A DNA stretch of 59,373 nucleotides from Bdellovibrionales bacterium. GTDB lineage: Bacteria > Bdellovibrionota > Bdellovibrionia > Bdellovibrionales > JAGQZY01. This document shows, piece after piece, positions 41,101 through 47,961 of this stretch. Below the pieces are notes generated by a model. That model did not search any database and was not told the origin of the DNA. It was given only the letters and a program-made list of their open reading frames with translations. The stretch is from the NCBI GenBank assembly GCA_020435205.1, contig JAGQZY010000005.1:1-59373 (forward strand), given 5' to 3'. Position 1 is the stretch's first letter. Every line of letters begins with the position of its first letter. A program made the translations under genes and the position numbers.

Positions 41101-44100
41101 CTAGTGAGATTTTTTGCGAATGACTCTGAAGATTTGGGGTTCTGACCACGCCTTAGGATAGCCGTCCTGTTTTCCACGCAAGCGAATATAGTAAATGCCG
41201 GAATCTAAGTTTTGACTAATCACTGTTTTGGTTTTTCCAGACACGGATTTAGTAAGAACTGGATTGGTCATAGCCGGTGAACGTGAGATCTCAATATCAT
41301 AGGTGTCGGCTTTTGAAGAGTATTCCCACTCAAGAACAAAAAAGGCATCGGCCTTATCCATTAAGATAAAGGTTTTTCGTTTTTCGGGACGAACAATCTT
41401 GGGGAAATATTTTCCTTCTGCTGTTGAAAGGTCGCCACTTTCTCTGGCAACACTAGCCAAGTGGATTTCCTTGTCTGGATCACCATGATTGAACCAAAAA
41501 TCTTCCTTAGAGTAGGGACTCAGAGGCTCTTTTGTGAGCGGATCGATGGCGCGAACCTTCCAGGAAAGATAACCCGTTTGATTGGGGATTGTTGTTTTGG
41601 TGTCATTGATAAACAAATTTTGCCTATTTTTATCACTTTTAAAATAGGTGTACTTAACCTGAAAGGAATCAACACCGGGGAGGGGATTCCAGTTTAACAA
41701 GTATTCTTTGTTCTCCTGATTGGTTCCGCTTGCTGTAGGGGCTGGGAACCACGATACGATGGTGCCCGTGGCTGGAGGGGAAAAGTCATCAGTTTTGTAA
41801 ATAGGCTGAACTTTAAAATAAGTTTTGCCAATAGGAACAAAGTCAGGGATCAACACTTTTTTTGTGGTCTCTTCCTCATGGTAAATTTCCTTGAAGTCAG
41901 GGTCACGAGAAAAAGACACTCTGTATTTGTCAGCTTTGCTGCCACCTTGCCATTTGATGGTTAGCTTCGTCTTTCGGTGTTTGGTGGGCATAGTTTTATC
42001 AGCAAGAACTTTTGGGTAGTCGCTTTCCACCATCCAATACATAATTTTATTTTTTTCCAATTTCACAGTTGGTAAATCTTTTGGCCAAAGAATTTTGAGA
42101 TCAAACTTCTGTGGAGACGTCCAGCTGGAAACCTGTTTTTCCTCAGTGTGGCGGCCGCGAACTCTCCAGTAATAAACACCATCTTCGAGAATCTCGACTT
42201 GGTAAGTCGTATCTTTAGTAAAGTCTTTGAGGAGAGACTCTTTGAAGTCAGAGGATTTTGAAACCTCAATATCGTATTCAGTCCAAACCTTATATTGATC
42301 AGACCATACAAAGTCCTGAAGTGGGGTTTCTCCGCGAGGAACAGGATAACGTAAACGGCTTTCATTTTCTGGACTTACAGGCAAAGGCGGCACATTAATT
42401 TTTGCCGTGAAAGTCGAGGTTTCAGAAGGGGTTTCACTCGCTCCATCTCTTCCAATGACACGCCAAAACACTTGTCCAACCATAGGAAGTTTCAATTCAA
42501 CTTCATTCTTTTGTTTAATGCGACGACGAATAGGGGATTTGAAACTCTTATCGCGGCTGAGTTCTAAAATGTATTCATCAAAAGCAACATCAGCCTTCCA
42601 ACGGAACTTGGTGTTCATTGAAGTGACATACCACATTGCTTCGTAATCATGAGGAGCCACCAGACTAATCACTCCGCCGTCACCTTTATTTTCTAGCGGA
42701 TCTTTGCGGGGATCAAATTCACCGGGGCGTAAGGTGCCTTGAGCCATGGCTCTTTGCGCAAGAGTGGCAAGGACGTCTTCGCTGAGGCCTCCCTCTTTCA
42801 AGGCTTCCAGAGCCTTTTTATCAAGGGCTCCTAAACGAATGGCATTAATGGCTTTGTCGTCAAGTCCTTGAGCTTTCAATTTATTGAGAGTTTCTTTATC
42901 GAGAGTTCCGTCAATCAATTTTGTTAAGGTCTCTTCGTCAAAAGCTCCTGACTTGAATAGGGCCAAAACTGCGGGACTCAGTAAGCTCTGTTGCAATCGC
43001 GCTAAAAGGTTTTCACTGATACCAGCAACACGTAAAGCTTCAATAGCCTCACTGTTGAGAGAGCCACTTTCGATCATAGCTTGATCCATTTTATCAAAAC
43101 CTTGTTTTTCAAGGGCTTGACTGGATTTCTTATCCAACTCACCGTAGCGCAATGCAGACACATTTTTTTCGTTTAAAACACCCTTACCAATGGCTCCTAA
43201 ACCCTGTTTGCTCAAGGCGCCTTTGCGGAAAGGAACAAGGGTTTTTTCAGAAATTCCAGCCTGACGAAAGGCTGAAATCGCTGTCTCGTTAAGAAACCCA
43301 CCGGCGATGACGGCGCGATCGAGTTCGTCGACACCCTCTTTGTTTAACTGGTTTTTGTCTTTTTTAGCTAAACTATTATCCATAATGTGACTGAGAGTCT
43401 TCTCTTTAACAGCCCCTTTGCGAATAGCGGCAATGGCTTTTTTGCTGAGAGCTCCGCCGCGCAAGCCCACCAAGGCTCGATCAGAGATTCCTCCTTCGCG
43501 AAGAGCGTCGATGGCCTCTTGGTTAAGAATGCCTTTTTCAATAACCAATTGGTCTGAGCGGGAAAGACCTTGCACAGCCAACTGATTGCGAGTGTTCTCA
43601 TCCATAGTTCCATAGCGCAAAGCAATTAGGTTTTGGTCATCAAGCACCCCATTACTAAGTGCTTTGAGGCCTGGAGGGCTGATAGTGCCTCTTTTAAAAC
43701 TAGCAAGAACGTAATCACTGATGCCACCCGCTTTGAGGGCAGCCAAGGTTTCTTGATCAAGAGCTCCGTGTTTTAACACTAAAAGGGCTTGGTCATCGAG
43801 GCCCCTCTTTTTAAGTTCAGCTAACTTTTCCTCGCTGATTGTACCATTGCGGAGTGCGGCTAGAGTTTCATCATCAAGAGCACCACTTTTTAATGCAGCC
43901 AAAGCTTCTGGACTCATTTGTGTTTGTTGCAACTGTGCCAAAGTAGTTTCTGAGAAGCCGGCAGCTTTCAGTGCAGCTAAGGTATCTTTGTCGAGAGCGC
44001 CATAGGCAAGAAGATCAAGTGTCTCGTTGGAAAAGCCCTTTTTGCGAAGAGCGGATAGCTCCTCAGCGGAGAGGTCGCCCCGGCGAAGTTTGAGGAGAGT

Positions 44101-44778
44101 CTCCTCATCAATCTTACCCTCTTTTAAGGATTGTAAAGTCAAGGAGTCAAATAAAGACGGGCGAAGTGATTTTACCAAAACTGGCTTTTTTTCCTTCGCT
44201 TTTTCTTTTTCTAAGGGATTGTTTGTGCTGGCTAAGGTTTCTACTTTCTTACCATTGACCTCTGCGACTCCCTTAAGAACCGCAATTGGCGGTAAGGGGT
44301 TTGCTGTTTCAACTTTAAATTTCCCGCCTTTTGTTGAAATATCCTCAGTTTGCCCATTGCGAATCACTTTGAAAGTCGATTCTTTTTCAACATTAGCTAA
44401 GAAACTACCATGTTGTAAGTTAAGTTGAAGAGTTCCATTTTTTCTAGAAAGAATAATCATGGAGTCAGGATCAAGATTGATTTCACCACCATCGTCAAGT
44501 GCAATAGTCACTGTAGAACTGGAGCCTGTAAAGATCCAGTCATTCTCAAAAACATCGCTGTTAGCATCAGCGCGATGCCAAACCAAACTTTGATCAAATT
44601 TTCGTTTCACTTGATTCTGTAGTTTTGCAAAATGACCAATTTTTATGGAGCCGGCACCAGCTGAATCGCCCCATATGATGTCATAGAAGAGCCATCCACT
44701 TGACATCACCGCCAAGCAGAGACAGGCCATCACAATGATGGAGTCTGATTTTTCTAAACGACTTTTCGCAAATAGCAT
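41101..44778 (-). CDS. giant membrane-anchored FecR-domain protein with 36 thirteen-residue repeats and FN3-like modules
   Basis: The 1225-residue protein has one membrane anchor (about 14-32), a FecR-type domain (about 70-175: 'NDWIFTGSSSTVTIALDDGGEINLDPDSMIIL', 'GTLQLNLQHGSFLANV', 'VLKGVAEVNG'), then exactly 36 uninterrupted 13-residue repeats (residues 212-679) and about five FN3-like sandwich modules (about 700-1220), each with a 'YWRVRG'-type strand. Anchor and modules place most of it in the periplasm. FecR domains relay signals or bind in the envelope. It is divergent from a PP2C / RsbW-like / STAS cassette. The start is the first ATG, with a GAGGAAA-type site before it. No catalytic motif seen; a sensor or scaffold is likely. 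Confidence 0.85.
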   Translation of the reverse strand: MLFAKSRLEKSDSIIVMACLCLAVMSSGWLFYDIIWGDSAGAGSIKIGHFAKLQNQVKRKFDQSLVWHRADANSDVFENDWIFTGSSSTVTIALDDGGEINLDPDSMIILSRKNGTLQLNLQHGSFLANVEKESTFKVIRNGQTEDISTKGGKFKVETANPLPPIAVLKGVAEVNGKKVETLASTNNPLEKEKAKEKKPVLVKSLRPSLFDSLTLQSLKEGKIDEETLLKLRRGDLSAEELSALRKKGFSNETLDLLAYGALDKDTLAALKAAGFSETTLAQLQQTQMSPEALAALKSGALDDETLAALRNGTISEEKLAELKKRGLDDQALLVLKHGALDQETLAALKAGGISDYVLASFKRGTISPPGLKALSNGVLDDQNLIALRYGTMDENTRNQLAVQGLSRSDQLVIEKGILNQEAIDALREGGISDRALVGLRGGALSKKAIAAIRKGAVKEKTLSHIMDNSLAKKDKNQLNKEGVDELDRAVIAGGFLNETAISAFRQAGISEKTLVPFRKGALSKQGLGAIGKGVLNEKNVSALRYGELDKKSSQALEKQGFDKMDQAMIESGSLNSEAIEALRVAGISENLLARLQQSLLSPAVLALFKSGAFDEETLTKLIDGTLDKETLNKLKAQGLDDKAINAIRLGALDKKALEALKEGGLSEDVLATLAQRAMAQGTLRPGEFDPRKDPLENKGDGGVISLVAPHDYEAMWYVTSMNTKFRWKADVAFDEYILELSRDKSFKSPIRRRIKQKNEVELKLPMVGQVFWRVIGRDGASETPSETSTFTAKINVPPLPVSPENESRLRYPVPRGETPLQDFVWSDQYKVWTEYDIEVSKSSDFKESLLKDFTKDTTYQVEILEDGVYYWRVRGRHTEEKQVSSWTSPQKFDLKILWPKDLPTVKLEKNKIMYWMVESDYPKVLADKTMPTKHRKTKLTIKWQGGSKADKYRVSFSRDPDFKEIYHEEETTKKVLIPDFVPIGKTYFKVQPIYKTDDFSPPATGTIVSWFPAPTASGTNQENKEYLLNWNPLPGVDSFQVKYTYFKSDKNRQNLFINDTKTTIPNQTGYLSWKVRAIDPLTKEPLSPYSKEDFWFNHGDPDKEIHLASVARESGDLSTAEGKYFPKIVRPEKRKTFILMDKADAFFVLEWEYSSKADTYDIEISRSPAMTNPVLTKSVSGKTKTVISQNLDSGIYYIRLRGKQDGYPKAWSEPQIFRVIRKKSH
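42742..44145 (-). repeat. 36 in-frame 39-bp (13-residue) repeats with six-repeat higher-order period
   Basis: The repeats lie within the FecR-domain gene and encode residues 212-679 without gap or insertion. Consensus: x-E-T-L-x-A-L-[KR]-x-G-x-[LI]-[DS]. Leu/Ile at positions 4, 7 and 12, Gly at 10 and Asp/Ser/Asn at 13 are most conserved. Copies six apart resemble each other best (15, 21, 27; also 17, 23, 29), giving a 78-residue (234-bp) cycle. At the DNA level the copies are well diverged, so the array is old. Confidence 0.9.
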
Positions 44779-44821
44779 TTTTTCCTCATTTTCTTGTCGG
44801 AAATCGAGGAGTAAAGCTTAG

Positions 44822-44877
44822 TAGGTCTTAGGTCTAAATGTGACCTCGACTGAAGTCAGAGATTAATTTTTATTAAT
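44822..44877. promoter_or_regulatory. repeats in the divergent FecR-repeat / PP2C intergenic region
   Basis: The 130-bp gap holds a tandem direct repeat TAGGTCT x2 (44822-44835), an inverted repeat AGGTC / GACCT (44830-44846) and an AT-rich inverted repeat ATTAAT / ATTAAT with a TTTT loop (44862-44877). These may be binding sites for control of the divergent genes; I see no clear promoter consensus. Confidence 0.35.
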
Positions 44878-44908
44878 GAATGAGGTGTGAGATGCCGAGA
44901 TAAGGGCT

Positions 44909-46726
44909 ATGGAAATACCAAAAAAATCGTTGTCGATTAAAAATAAAATTTTAATTGTCCTGGCATCCTTGCCTGTGCTGTCCATATCTTTGATTGTGGC
45001 TACGGCAACAACGGTTTTTAAAGAAGACAAATTGGCCTATGTTTTTGATACGGCCTTGTCTTCAACTCGAGCTAAGGCCAATACTTTAGATTCGCAAATT
45101 TCCGGCTTTACCCAATCTTTAAAAGCTTTGCAGGCGAACTATGACCCAGACCTTAAGCGCCTAAGTTTTGCTGGAAAAAAGTATTTTGATGCTGAACCTA
45201 ATATTAAAGCTTTTTATAATTTTCAATGGGATGGGAAGAGGTTCCTCACTCATTATAAAAAAGCAGGTGATGGAGTTGATCTCGATGATTCCGAATTAGA
45301 AGAGATGGATGACCTACTCAAGGAAGCTTGGTATGAGGGTTTTTCAGTTGGAGTCTCCAAACAGCGTCCTATGCATATGTATATTGCGGCCCGCATCGGT
45401 GAAGATGGGGGTGGTGAAATTGCGGCTATTATGGTTGAGACTTCACAATCTTTTTCACTTTTTGGAAAAGGACCTCGTGGAGAAAACTACTTATACCATC
45501 CTTTGCGTGGGCGACTCGCTGGTGGCGATAGCCAATTGGGGTTGGATCAATTCTTGGCTAATCAGGTTTTCAATCAAAAGTCTCGAGATGCCACTAAGGA
45601 AGTGGAGCTAGGGAAGGAAAAATATTTAGCATCTTATTCTCGCCTTGAGGCGGGAAAGCTATTTGTGGTTTCGACGATAAATAAGGACAGAGCTCTCGTG
45701 GCCGTTCGTAAACTTATGGCCAGGTCTTTTGCTTTTGGGCTCTTTATACTCAGTGTGGTCGGTATTATTGGTGTCTTTGCTTCTAATGGTTTGACCAGCG
45801 CGTTGCGAGGACTTGCTGAGGCCACTTCTAAAGTTATGGATGGAGATTTTACTGTTCGTGTGGAAACAAAAAATGATGACGAAATTGGCTCTCTAGCTAT
45901 GAGTTTTAATAAAATGACAGAAGAAGTTTCAAGACTCATGGAAAAGACTGCGCAGAATGCACGTATGGAGGCCGAACTAAAAACAGCACAAACCGTACAA
46001 GAAACTCTGTTTCCGCCGAGTTCAGCACAAATCGGACCTGTGCAAATCTATGGTAAGATGGAGCCTGCTTCTGAGTGCGGTGGCGATTGGTGGTATTATT
46101 GTCAAATCGACAAAAAAGTGTGGGTTTGGATTGGTGATGCCACTGGCCATGGTGTGCCGGCAGCTCTTTTAACCAGTGCGGCGCGCGCGGTGGCGTCCGT
46201 TATCGAAAAAATCCCAGATATGACTCCAAGTCGAGCCCTAGAGGTTATGAATCGAGCTATTTATTCGACCTCAAAAGGGGAGATGATGATGACTTTCTTT
46301 TTGGGTTGTATCGATCTGGATAAGAACACTTTTACTTATGCTAATGCCTCCCACGATCCACCTTTTTATCTGAACAATGAAATTACAGGAAAGCCAAAAA
46401 GAAAAGATTATTTTCCTCTCATGGAAATCAATAACCCTCGCCTTGGTGAATCGGATGGGACTCAATATAAAGAATATTCCATGCCAATTGCTATGGGTGA
46501 CAAGATTATCTTCTATACGGATGGAATTATGGATGTCAAAGATCCCAAAGGAGATATTTGGGGTGAGCGTCGCTTTTTAAAGTCTCTATCAAGAATTAAT
46601 GAAACAAACATTGAGTCTACAGTAGTGGATGTGTTTGATGACTTGAACAACTTTAGACAAGATATTCCTTTAGATGATGATGTGACTCTCATTGTTGTAG
46701 AGTTGGAGAAGGGTAAAGCAGCTTAA
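44909..46726 (+). CDS. membrane sensor with HAMP and PP2C (SpoIIE/RsbU) phosphatase domain
   Basis: The 605-residue protein has TM1 (about 12-34), an extracytoplasmic sensor region (about 35-268), TM2 (about 272-292), a HAMP linker ('LAEATSKVMDGDFTVRVETKNDDEIGSLAMSFNKM', about 300-338), a short coiled coil and a PP2C phosphatase domain ('ECGGDWWYYCQ', 'WIGDATGHGVPAALL', 'IIFYTDGIMD', 'PLDDDVTLIVVE') with the acidic metal ligands. In RsbU-type systems the phosphatase dephosphorylates a STAS antagonist. The two genes that follow, with no gap and a one-base overlap, encode the ATPase and STAS partners. Confidence 0.93.
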   Translation: MEIPKKSLSIKNKILIVLASLPVLSISLIVATATTVFKEDKLAYVFDTALSSTRAKANTLDSQISGFTQSLKALQANYDPDLKRLSFAGKKYFDAEPNIKAFYNFQWDGKRFLTHYKKAGDGVDLDDSELEEMDDLLKEAWYEGFSVGVSKQRPMHMYIAARIGEDGGGEIAAIMVETSQSFSLFGKGPRGENYLYHPLRGRLAGGDSQLGLDQFLANQVFNQKSRDATKEVELGKEKYLASYSRLEAGKLFVVSTINKDRALVAVRKLMARSFAFGLFILSVVGIIGVFASNGLTSALRGLAEATSKVMDGDFTVRVETKNDDEIGSLAMSFNKMTEEVSRLMEKTAQNARMEAELKTAQTVQETLFPPSSAQIGPVQIYGKMEPASECGGDWWYYCQIDKKVWVWIGDATGHGVPAALLTSAARAVASVIEKIPDMTPSRALEVMNRAIYSTSKGEMMMTFFLGCIDLDKNTFTYANASHDPPFYLNNEITGKPKRKDYFPLMEINNPRLGESDGTQYKEYSMPIAMGDKIIFYTDGIMDVKDPKGDIWGERRFLKSLSRINETNIESTVVDVFDDLNNFRQDIPLDDDVTLIVVELEKGKAA

Positions 46727-47461
46727 ATGGGCAAGGTCATATACCTAAAAGATTTTCTGAAAAACCAACACGGCACCTTAGAGGGCAAGGTGGTTGTGGG
46801 TTCTGACGTGCGCCCGGCACAAGCCGTAAATTTGGCAATCACCAATCGATCTTTACAAGTCGTCACTGATGGTTTTGACGAAAGTTTGGCCTTAAAAATT
46901 TCTGAAAATCCTGATGATTTTGTGCGCGACCCTGGTGAGTATTTATTAGGACAAGATAGTAACGGAATTGGTAGTTTTCAACAAAAGTTTTTTCGACAAT
47001 CCAAAAAGGATGACTTTCTTTTTCAAATTGAAACCTATTTAAAAAGTGGGCAGCATCGTCGCGTACGTGATGATATATATCTCATCGCCGACGAGCTATT
47101 TACAAATTTCGCTAAGTCGTCAGCTGAAGACTCTAAAACTATGGTTTTTGGAATTGAAAACGATAAAGATACAGTCATGATTTATTGTCGAGATCAGCAA
47201 GGAGCTTTGGATCCTCACATCATGCTGCAAAGCATTCAGCGCTGCTATCAGCAAGGTGTGAAGGCGTCGATTCGTATGGATAGCAAAGGAGGCGCCGGCA
47301 TTGGTAGTTTTCTTATGTATAGTGTATCGACGGGGATGGCTATTATTGTTGAGCCAGGAAAGCATTCTATGGTGTTGCTATGGATGCCTCGTAAGGCGCA
47401 TCACGAGGATCGGGTGGATATGAATAAGAATCTTTTTGTGATTTCAGGTAAGGGGGAGTAA
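46727..47461 (+). CDS. RsbW/SpoIIAB-like GHKL ATPase (anti-sigma/serine kinase type)
   Basis: The 244-residue cytosolic protein starts right after the phosphatase stop. Its C-terminal half is a GHKL ATPase: N-box 'ADELFTNFAKSS' (N127), 'YCRDQQGALDP' for the G1 box and 'KGGAGIGSFLMYS' for the G2 box. Residues 1-100 form an extra domain not usual in RsbW, of unknown fold. Such proteins phosphorylate a STAS antagonist and hold a target (sigma factor or other) until released. It overlaps the STAS gene by one base. No sigma-factor gene is adjacent. Confidence 0.85.
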   Translation: MGKVIYLKDFLKNQHGTLEGKVVVGSDVRPAQAVNLAITNRSLQVVTDGFDESLALKISENPDDFVRDPGEYLLGQDSNGIGSFQQKFFRQSKKDDFLFQIETYLKSGQHRRVRDDIYLIADELFTNFAKSSAEDSKTMVFGIENDKDTVMIYCRDQQGALDPHIMLQSIQRCYQQGVKASIRMDSKGGAGIGSFLMYSVSTGMAIIVEPGKHSMVLLWMPRKAHHEDRVDMNKNLFVISGKGE

Positions 47462-47961
47462 TGTCGTTCACGATTAAAAAGGAAGAGAAAGATGGTAAGC
47501 CATTCTTGATCTTTTCTGGAGCTATCGACGAAGAAGCTGATTTCCCACAGTTTGGACCCTTGGGGCCTGAAGTGATCGTTGACCTTAAAGAGGTGCAGTC
47601 GATCAATTCAGTGGGAATTCGATCATGGCTCATTTGGTTTACCGACCAGAAAGAGACCCTGTTCATCTTTGAAGGTTGCCCTAAAGCTGTTGTTATGCAA
47701 ATGAACATGGTGGAAGGGTTTTTGCCGGAGAAGTCAAAAGTGCATTCTATGGTTATGCCATTTTATTGCGAAAAGTGTGATAAAGAAATCGATCGTCTTT
47801 TTGAAGTGGGTAAACAAATCTTAATTCAGGGTGAGGATGTCGAAGTCAAATTTGATGCTTCTCAAATTTGCGAGCCTGGCTGTGAGCCAGAGCTTGATAT
47901 TAACAAAGCCAAATATTTACGTTTTTTAGTTCGTTTAGAACAACAAAACCAAGCCGCCTAA
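47461..47961 (+). CDS. STAS-domain antagonist-like protein with cysteine-rich tail
   Basis: The 166-residue protein has an N-terminal STAS fold ('FLIFSGAIDEEADFPQF', 'EVIVDLKEVQSINSVGIRSWLIWF', about 14-60) with Ser47 and Ser50 at the usual phosphorylation site. The C-terminal part holds C103-x-x-C106 and C137-x-x-x-C141, which could bind zinc. STAS antagonists are phosphorylated by an RsbW-type kinase and dephosphorylated by the PP2C protein; both partner genes lie just upstream. The cysteine-rich tail is unusual for this family and could add a protein or metal contact. Confidence 0.85.
   Translation: MSFTIKKEEKDGKPFLIFSGAIDEEADFPQFGPLGPEVIVDLKEVQSINSVGIRSWLIWFTDQKETLFIFEGCPKAVVMQMNMVEGFLPEKSKVHSMVMPFYCEKCDKEIDRLFEVGKQILIQGEDVEVKFDASQICEPGCEPELDINKAKYLRFLVRLEQQNQAA

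Follow-up and report, generated by a model that had tools for sequence, protein, structure and literature searches.

A probable transmembrane partner switch of Bdellovibrionota whose phosphatase receptor has a near-constant periplasmic FecR-FN3 companion, with a proposed mechanism

The divergent locus and its four proteins

The window analyzed here, a 59,373-nucleotide stretch of a Bdellovibrionales contig, contains a large minus-strand gene standing head to head with three coupled plus-strand genes. The former encodes a FecR-FN3 periplasmic protein with a predicted inner-membrane anchor (41101..44778, 1225 aa). Across a divergent intergenic gap of 130 bp (44779..44908) follow the genes for a transmembrane PP2C phosphatase (44909..46726, 605 aa), a GHKL (HATPase) kinase (46727..47461, 244 aa) and a STAS protein (47461..47961, 166 aa). 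The kinase ATG directly follows the phosphatase stop codon, and the STAS ATG shares one base with the kinase stop. This agrees with the first-pass annotation, which described a giant protein facing a gap-free PP2C, kinase and STAS cassette; its observation is confirmed as a whole, and all four reading frames were recovered in place. We looked for a sigma-70-like promoter in the 130-bp gap and found no candidate there, and a shared promoter of this kind was rejected. No sigma gene was identified among the ten window neighbors and cassette genes scanned with Pfam. The targets of partner switches may be encoded away from the cassette.

In the phosphatase, a HAMP domain (residues 294-340, 45788..45928, plus strand; Pfam E 2e-11) precedes a SpoIIE/PP2C catalytic domain (residues 401-599, 46109..46705, plus strand; Pfam SpoIIE E 5e-37), and the acidic residues D393, D410, D531, D538, D590, and D591 are invariant across 19 homologues, so that this is an RsbU-type PP2C (SpoIIE) protein with intact acidic residues. 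The extracytoplasmic sensor recognized earlier (residues about 34-267, 45008..45709, plus strand) can now be specified further. It lies between two TM-like stretches, and its AlphaFold2 model (pLDDT 93.8) has a tandem Cache fold and matches dCache receptors in the PDB (Foldseek, VIA), among them the periplasmic domain of Chlamydia RsbU (PDB 6mab; VIA Z 12.8, rmsd 5.0 over 213 residues). The sensor family profile also finds dCache chemoreceptors and PDB dCache domains by sequence (E 1e-4). As judged by model and profile, the sensor is a dCache domain followed by HAMP.

The assignments of the kinase and the STAS protein rest on family profiles and motifs, because Pfam is weak for the window proteins. 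The kinase has the N-, G1- and G2-boxes of a GHKL kinase, with E123, N127, D156, G159, and G193 invariant across 38 homologues and G189, A190, and G191 nearly so, alongside a weak Pfam HATPase_c match (0.0025). The STAS protein has no Pfam STAS match, and its assignment rests on a family profile whose four best PDB matches, at weak E values (0.02-0.05), all belong to STAS proteins. Its candidate phosphorylatable residue, Ser50 (codon 47608-47610, plus strand), is invariant across 58 homologues and in the alignment occupies the position of the DSxG serine of TM1442. The C-terminal extension of this protein contains C103, C106, C137, and C141, which are not conserved in every homologue and possibly form a zinc site. 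In relatives, fusions of phosphatase with kinase (L239, L247, L249) and of kinase with STAS protein (L192, L244) link the products of the cassette, and Pfam confirmed SpoIIE, HAMP, and HATPase_c in the L247 fusion.

Paralogues of the smaller cassette proteins occur in other settings. One kinase-STAS pair (L070:8534-10495, corresponding to G000:C153; L072:8860-10825) is followed by a 153-aa protein matching the FliG C-terminal domain, an arrangement that may connect another switch of the same family to the flagellar motor. Four STAS paralogues without a PP2C gene adjoin genes for metallo-beta-lactamase-fold proteins (L081:8698-9738, L086:9601-10581, L095:9870-10841, L096:8803-9780), and another (L100:7824-8987) adjoins the gene for an MscS-type mechanosensitive channel.

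The giant protein has one TM-like stretch near its N terminus (near residues 12-35, with the anchor placed at about residues 12-32, 44683..44745, minus strand), identified by hydropathy, and behind it a FecR domain (residues 82-172, 44263..44535, minus strand; Pfam PF04773, E 1e-7), as in FecR regulators. A cytoplasmic N-terminal anti-sigma domain is absent; since only 11 residues precede the TM-like stretch, there is no space for one. FN3/Ig-like modules were placed by homologue comparison in the last part of the protein (residues about 702-1222, about 520 residues; 41113..42675, minus strand). The FN3-like modules proposed in the first-pass annotation therefore hold at the level of the family, in which 14 of 24 homologues match Ig_Rha78A_N, 3 of 24 match fn3, and a motif W...YWRV...S.WS recurs along the alignment, whereas Pfam fn3 finds no match in the window protein.

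Between these regions lie 36 probably helical units of 13 residues each, joined without gaps (residues 205-672, 42763..44166, minus strand), which correspond to the solenoid noted earlier. Residue autocorrelation reaches 0.24-0.26 at lags 13, 26, and 39, compared with 0.04-0.14 at other lags, and a low-confidence single-sequence model (pLDDT 53) has one short helix per unit. Tandem Repeats Finder detected no repeat at the DNA level in 42763-44166. The only PDB matches of this stretch were designed helical proteins, which we regard as compositional. The array was seen in just 1 of 368 genomes of the phylum, the window's own, and in most FecR homologues its place is taken by a linker of ~20-30 residues; long homologues owe their length to FN3-type modules. 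For these reasons we rejected the solenoid as a core part of a conserved system, and it may be a lineage-specific spacer in this species.

Pairing of FecR and receptor genes across Bdellovibrionota

Open reading frames were called in relatives and annotated by profiles that were built from the window proteins and then refined iteratively on the retrieved loci. Among the 80 top-ranking loci from a single scan of named genomes, nearly all titled as Bdellovibrionota groups, the FecR gene adjoins the phosphatase gene or lies no more than three genes away at 67 of the 74 evaluable loci. Of the 79 full-length phosphatase genes, 63 are directly preceded by a divergent FecR gene (median gap 104 bp) and four have one within three genes; five of the rest are at a contig edge and seven have no FecR neighbor. 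The paired loci come from genomes titled Bdellovibrio, Bdellovibrionales, Bacteriovoracaceae, Halobacteriovorax, and others. We also evaluated 118 genomes of the same order, which are not independent samples and include many small genomes among those without both genes. A FecR relative was present in 75/75 genomes with a close phosphatase (E <= 1e-70), with none lacking it; where the phosphatase was absent, 19 genomes had a FecR relative and 24 had neither. Even two genomes with a cassette lacking a FecR neighbor (G018, G104) encode FecR proteins elsewhere. A link once drawn by gene position in a single genome is thus a phylum-wide pairing with co-occurrence by genome, and the pattern that the first-pass annotation named as refuting, a cassette without a FecR-repeat neighbor or the reverse, with no co-occurrence, is rare. 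In these data, the pairing of FecR gene and cassette is characteristic of Bdellovibrionota.

For 68 adjacent FecR/PP2C pairs, the distance matrices of the two proteins correlate (r 0.66-0.75; Mantel p 0.0005 for the sensor). Sensor-specific co-evolution with FecR was dropped as an argument, given that the partial correlation was higher for the catalytic domain (0.49) than for the sensor (0.15).

Some loci depart from the common pattern. One record titled Streptomyces griseus (L195, CALQIT020000074.1) has a cassette of the usual Bdellovibrionota type, accompanied by CheA, CheY, and FecR; it is probably a metagenome bin with a wrong label. At eight loci (L209, L214, L216, L223, L227, L228, L230, L243) the divergent FecR and PP2C genes have no kinase or STAS gene nearby, and a protein of 395-482 aa is encoded 3' of the phosphatase. 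The two of these sequences that we read (L214, L227) begin with a signal-like segment and end in a barrel-like C-terminal part; Pfam gave no match for the L214 protein.

Analysis of FecR loci also revealed a second type of receptor. At nine loci (L139, L288, L289, L290, L291, L293, L297, L298, L299), a FecR gene has an adenylate-cyclase-type gene next to it or no more than three genes away; this is a non-random sample, because eight of the nine were drawn from 20 FecR loci picked for having no known PP2C neighbor, and at about half of those 20 no receptor partner was seen. Six of the cyclase-type proteins (L139, L288, L289, L290, L291, L293) were examined with Pfam, and all contain cyclase and HAMP domains. 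Five show dCache similarity (Pfam dCache_1 or the sensor profile), which is absent from L289. The remaining three (L297, L298, L299) were assigned solely by similarity to the L289 cyclase region. Because FecR is found near cyclase-type receptors at these loci, it appears to go with the receptor and not with one output. The earlier proposal that the giant protein modulates the phosphatase sensor gains from such cyclase-output receptors; contact between the two is something we infer.

Since the receptor gene is almost always back to back with the FecR gene across the phylum, our results suggest that the phosphatase receptor and the FecR protein are one previously undescribed envelope-sensing device. 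The same layout would also be produced if FecR and cassette were merely co-regulated through a divergent promoter region and used under the same condition, with no contact between FecR and the receptor. The short median gap would provide such co-regulation, and the co-evolution signal, not being specific to the sensor, is compatible with it. On the other hand, FecR, an FN3 protein, and the cyclase are encoded in the same direction at L289, L290, L298, and L299, and FecR also adjoins FecR-less-promoter arrangements. Because the pairing survives beyond one promoter layout in this way, we consider co-regulation by itself improbable and favor a single sensing device.

Fuller clusters and a proposed mechanism

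In several families the cluster is longer: facing a divergent FecR gene stand, in this order, the PP2C, kinase, STAS, CheA, CheY, and response-regulator genes. PAS, Hpt, and HATPase_c domains are present in the CheA-like protein, and the response regulator combines a receiver domain with DnaJ-like or DUF4388 regions. In relatives, a regulator of the DUF4388/DnaJ/TPR type belongs to the same cluster, often directly 3' of the STAS gene. Many Bdellovibrio-type clusters are missing the kinase and have CheA after FecR instead; unlinked kinase homologues are present in those genomes of this type that were checked. The window's own genome has a relative of the regulator on another contig (G000:C147), and a search of it for a CheA-like kinase gave nothing beyond generic ATPase-level matches. 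Some cassettes have recurring metabolic genes upstream (homogentisate- and RibD-type enzymes), which we considered incidental.

Because the fuller clusters add CheA, CheY, and response-regulator genes, the output is probably something other than a sigma factor, and the DUF4388/TPR response regulator is our best lead for it. The first-pass annotation had reasoned similarly from the lack of an adjacent sigma gene. A classical sigma-factor switch, with the kinase as anti-sigma factor, the STAS protein as its antagonist and FecR as a loosely linked neighbor, would account for the presence of PP2C, GHKL, and STAS proteins that keep their conserved residues. It fits poorly with the lack of a sigma gene among the scanned cassette neighbors, with the identity of the conserved neighbors (CheA, CheY, response regulator), and with the co-occurrence of FecR by genome, and it seems unlikely to us.

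We therefore favor a transmembrane partner switch whose receptor has a near-constant periplasmic FecR-FN3 companion, and assign this reading, together with the mechanism proposed here, a probability of roughly 0.68. The FecR-FN3 protein, anchored in the inner membrane, would extend into the periplasm, sense or relay the state of the envelope, and dock on the dCache domain of the phosphatase or present a signal to it. By analogy to SiaA and other receptors of the HAMP-PP2C type, HAMP would then convey this change to the phosphatase domain. The conservation of catalytic and acceptor residues, the coupling of the genes, and the fusions point to a cycle in which the GHKL protein would phosphorylate Ser50 of the STAS protein and PP2C would remove the phosphate. 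While in one of its phosphorylation states, the STAS protein may bind its target, for which the response regulator with DUF4388/DnaJ/TPR-like regions is the best candidate and a sigma factor the less likely one. The interpretation offered originally is supported in part: the pairing of giant gene and cassette holds, the repeat array lies outside the conserved core, and the sensor has been re-specified as dCache.

FecR domains of characterized systems act in signal input. An alternative in which the FecR protein is instead the output, with the switch controlling the expression or state of what would be a structural protein of the envelope, would suit a large FN3-type modular protein with no known ligand but conflicts with this input role and with the persistence of the pairing with cyclase receptors, and is very unlikely.

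A broader form of the favored reading is that FecR-FN3 proteins are dedicated, exchangeable periplasmic co-receptors of Bdellovibrionota, which would couple envelope state through HAMP receptors (PP2C or cyclase) to a CheA/CheY/DUF4388 network and would not be anti-sigma regulators; we regard the odds on this generalization as evenly balanced. Predation by Bdellovibrio and Halobacteriovorax depends on sensing and crossing envelopes. If the proposal is true, FecR-domain proteins gain a function besides the control of sigma factors, and a conserved envelope-to-cytoplasm signaling module can be named for the phylum of these predators.

Relationship to known systems

Our literature searches of open-access papers found none describing a FecR-paired partner switch. 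The cassette resembles RsbU/RsbW/RsbV of Bacillus in its PP2C phosphatase, GHKL kinase, and STAS protein, and Chlamydia RsbU (PDB 6mab) in the structure of the periplasmic sensor. It differs from RsbU-type systems in the recurrent FecR-FN3 companion, the cysteine-bearing C-terminal extension of the STAS protein, the lack of a sigma gene among scanned neighbors, and the linkage of its relatives to CheA, CheY, and a DUF4388-type regulator.

SiaABCD of Pseudomonas aeruginosa comprises a HAMP-PP2C phosphatase, a kinase, and a STAS-like substrate, and its target is not a sigma factor (PMC7647112, PMC8457831). The window system shares the transmembrane HAMP-PP2C phosphatase, the kinase, and a putative STAS-type substrate, but has a FecR partner and no diguanylate cyclase in the cassette. 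Membership in SiaABCD was rejected, as the SiaA equivalog model NF038263 scored 79.6 bits against a cut-off of 700. DUF1987 (SiaC-type) was found neither among 25 of the 27 families matched by 58 STAS members nor in the window protein. Membership in the slr1658 family was likewise rejected, far below the cut-off.

FecR anti-sigma regulators (FecI/FecR; Leptospira LIC_12756, PMC12155086) share with the giant protein a FecR domain behind a single TM anchor. The window FecR protein differs from them in its 11 residues before the TM stretch, its FN3-like extension, and a receptor gene as partner. In the Burkholderia BiofilmReg operon, a LysM-FecR protein is encoded with a CHASE2 histidine kinase and a response regulator (PMC5192318). 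Both loci thus encode a FecR-domain periplasmic protein together with a transmembrane sensor, a kinase there and a phosphatase receptor here; BiofilmReg has a CHASE2 histidine kinase and response regulator in place of PP2C and STAS proteins, and its FecR protein carries LysM and not FN3.
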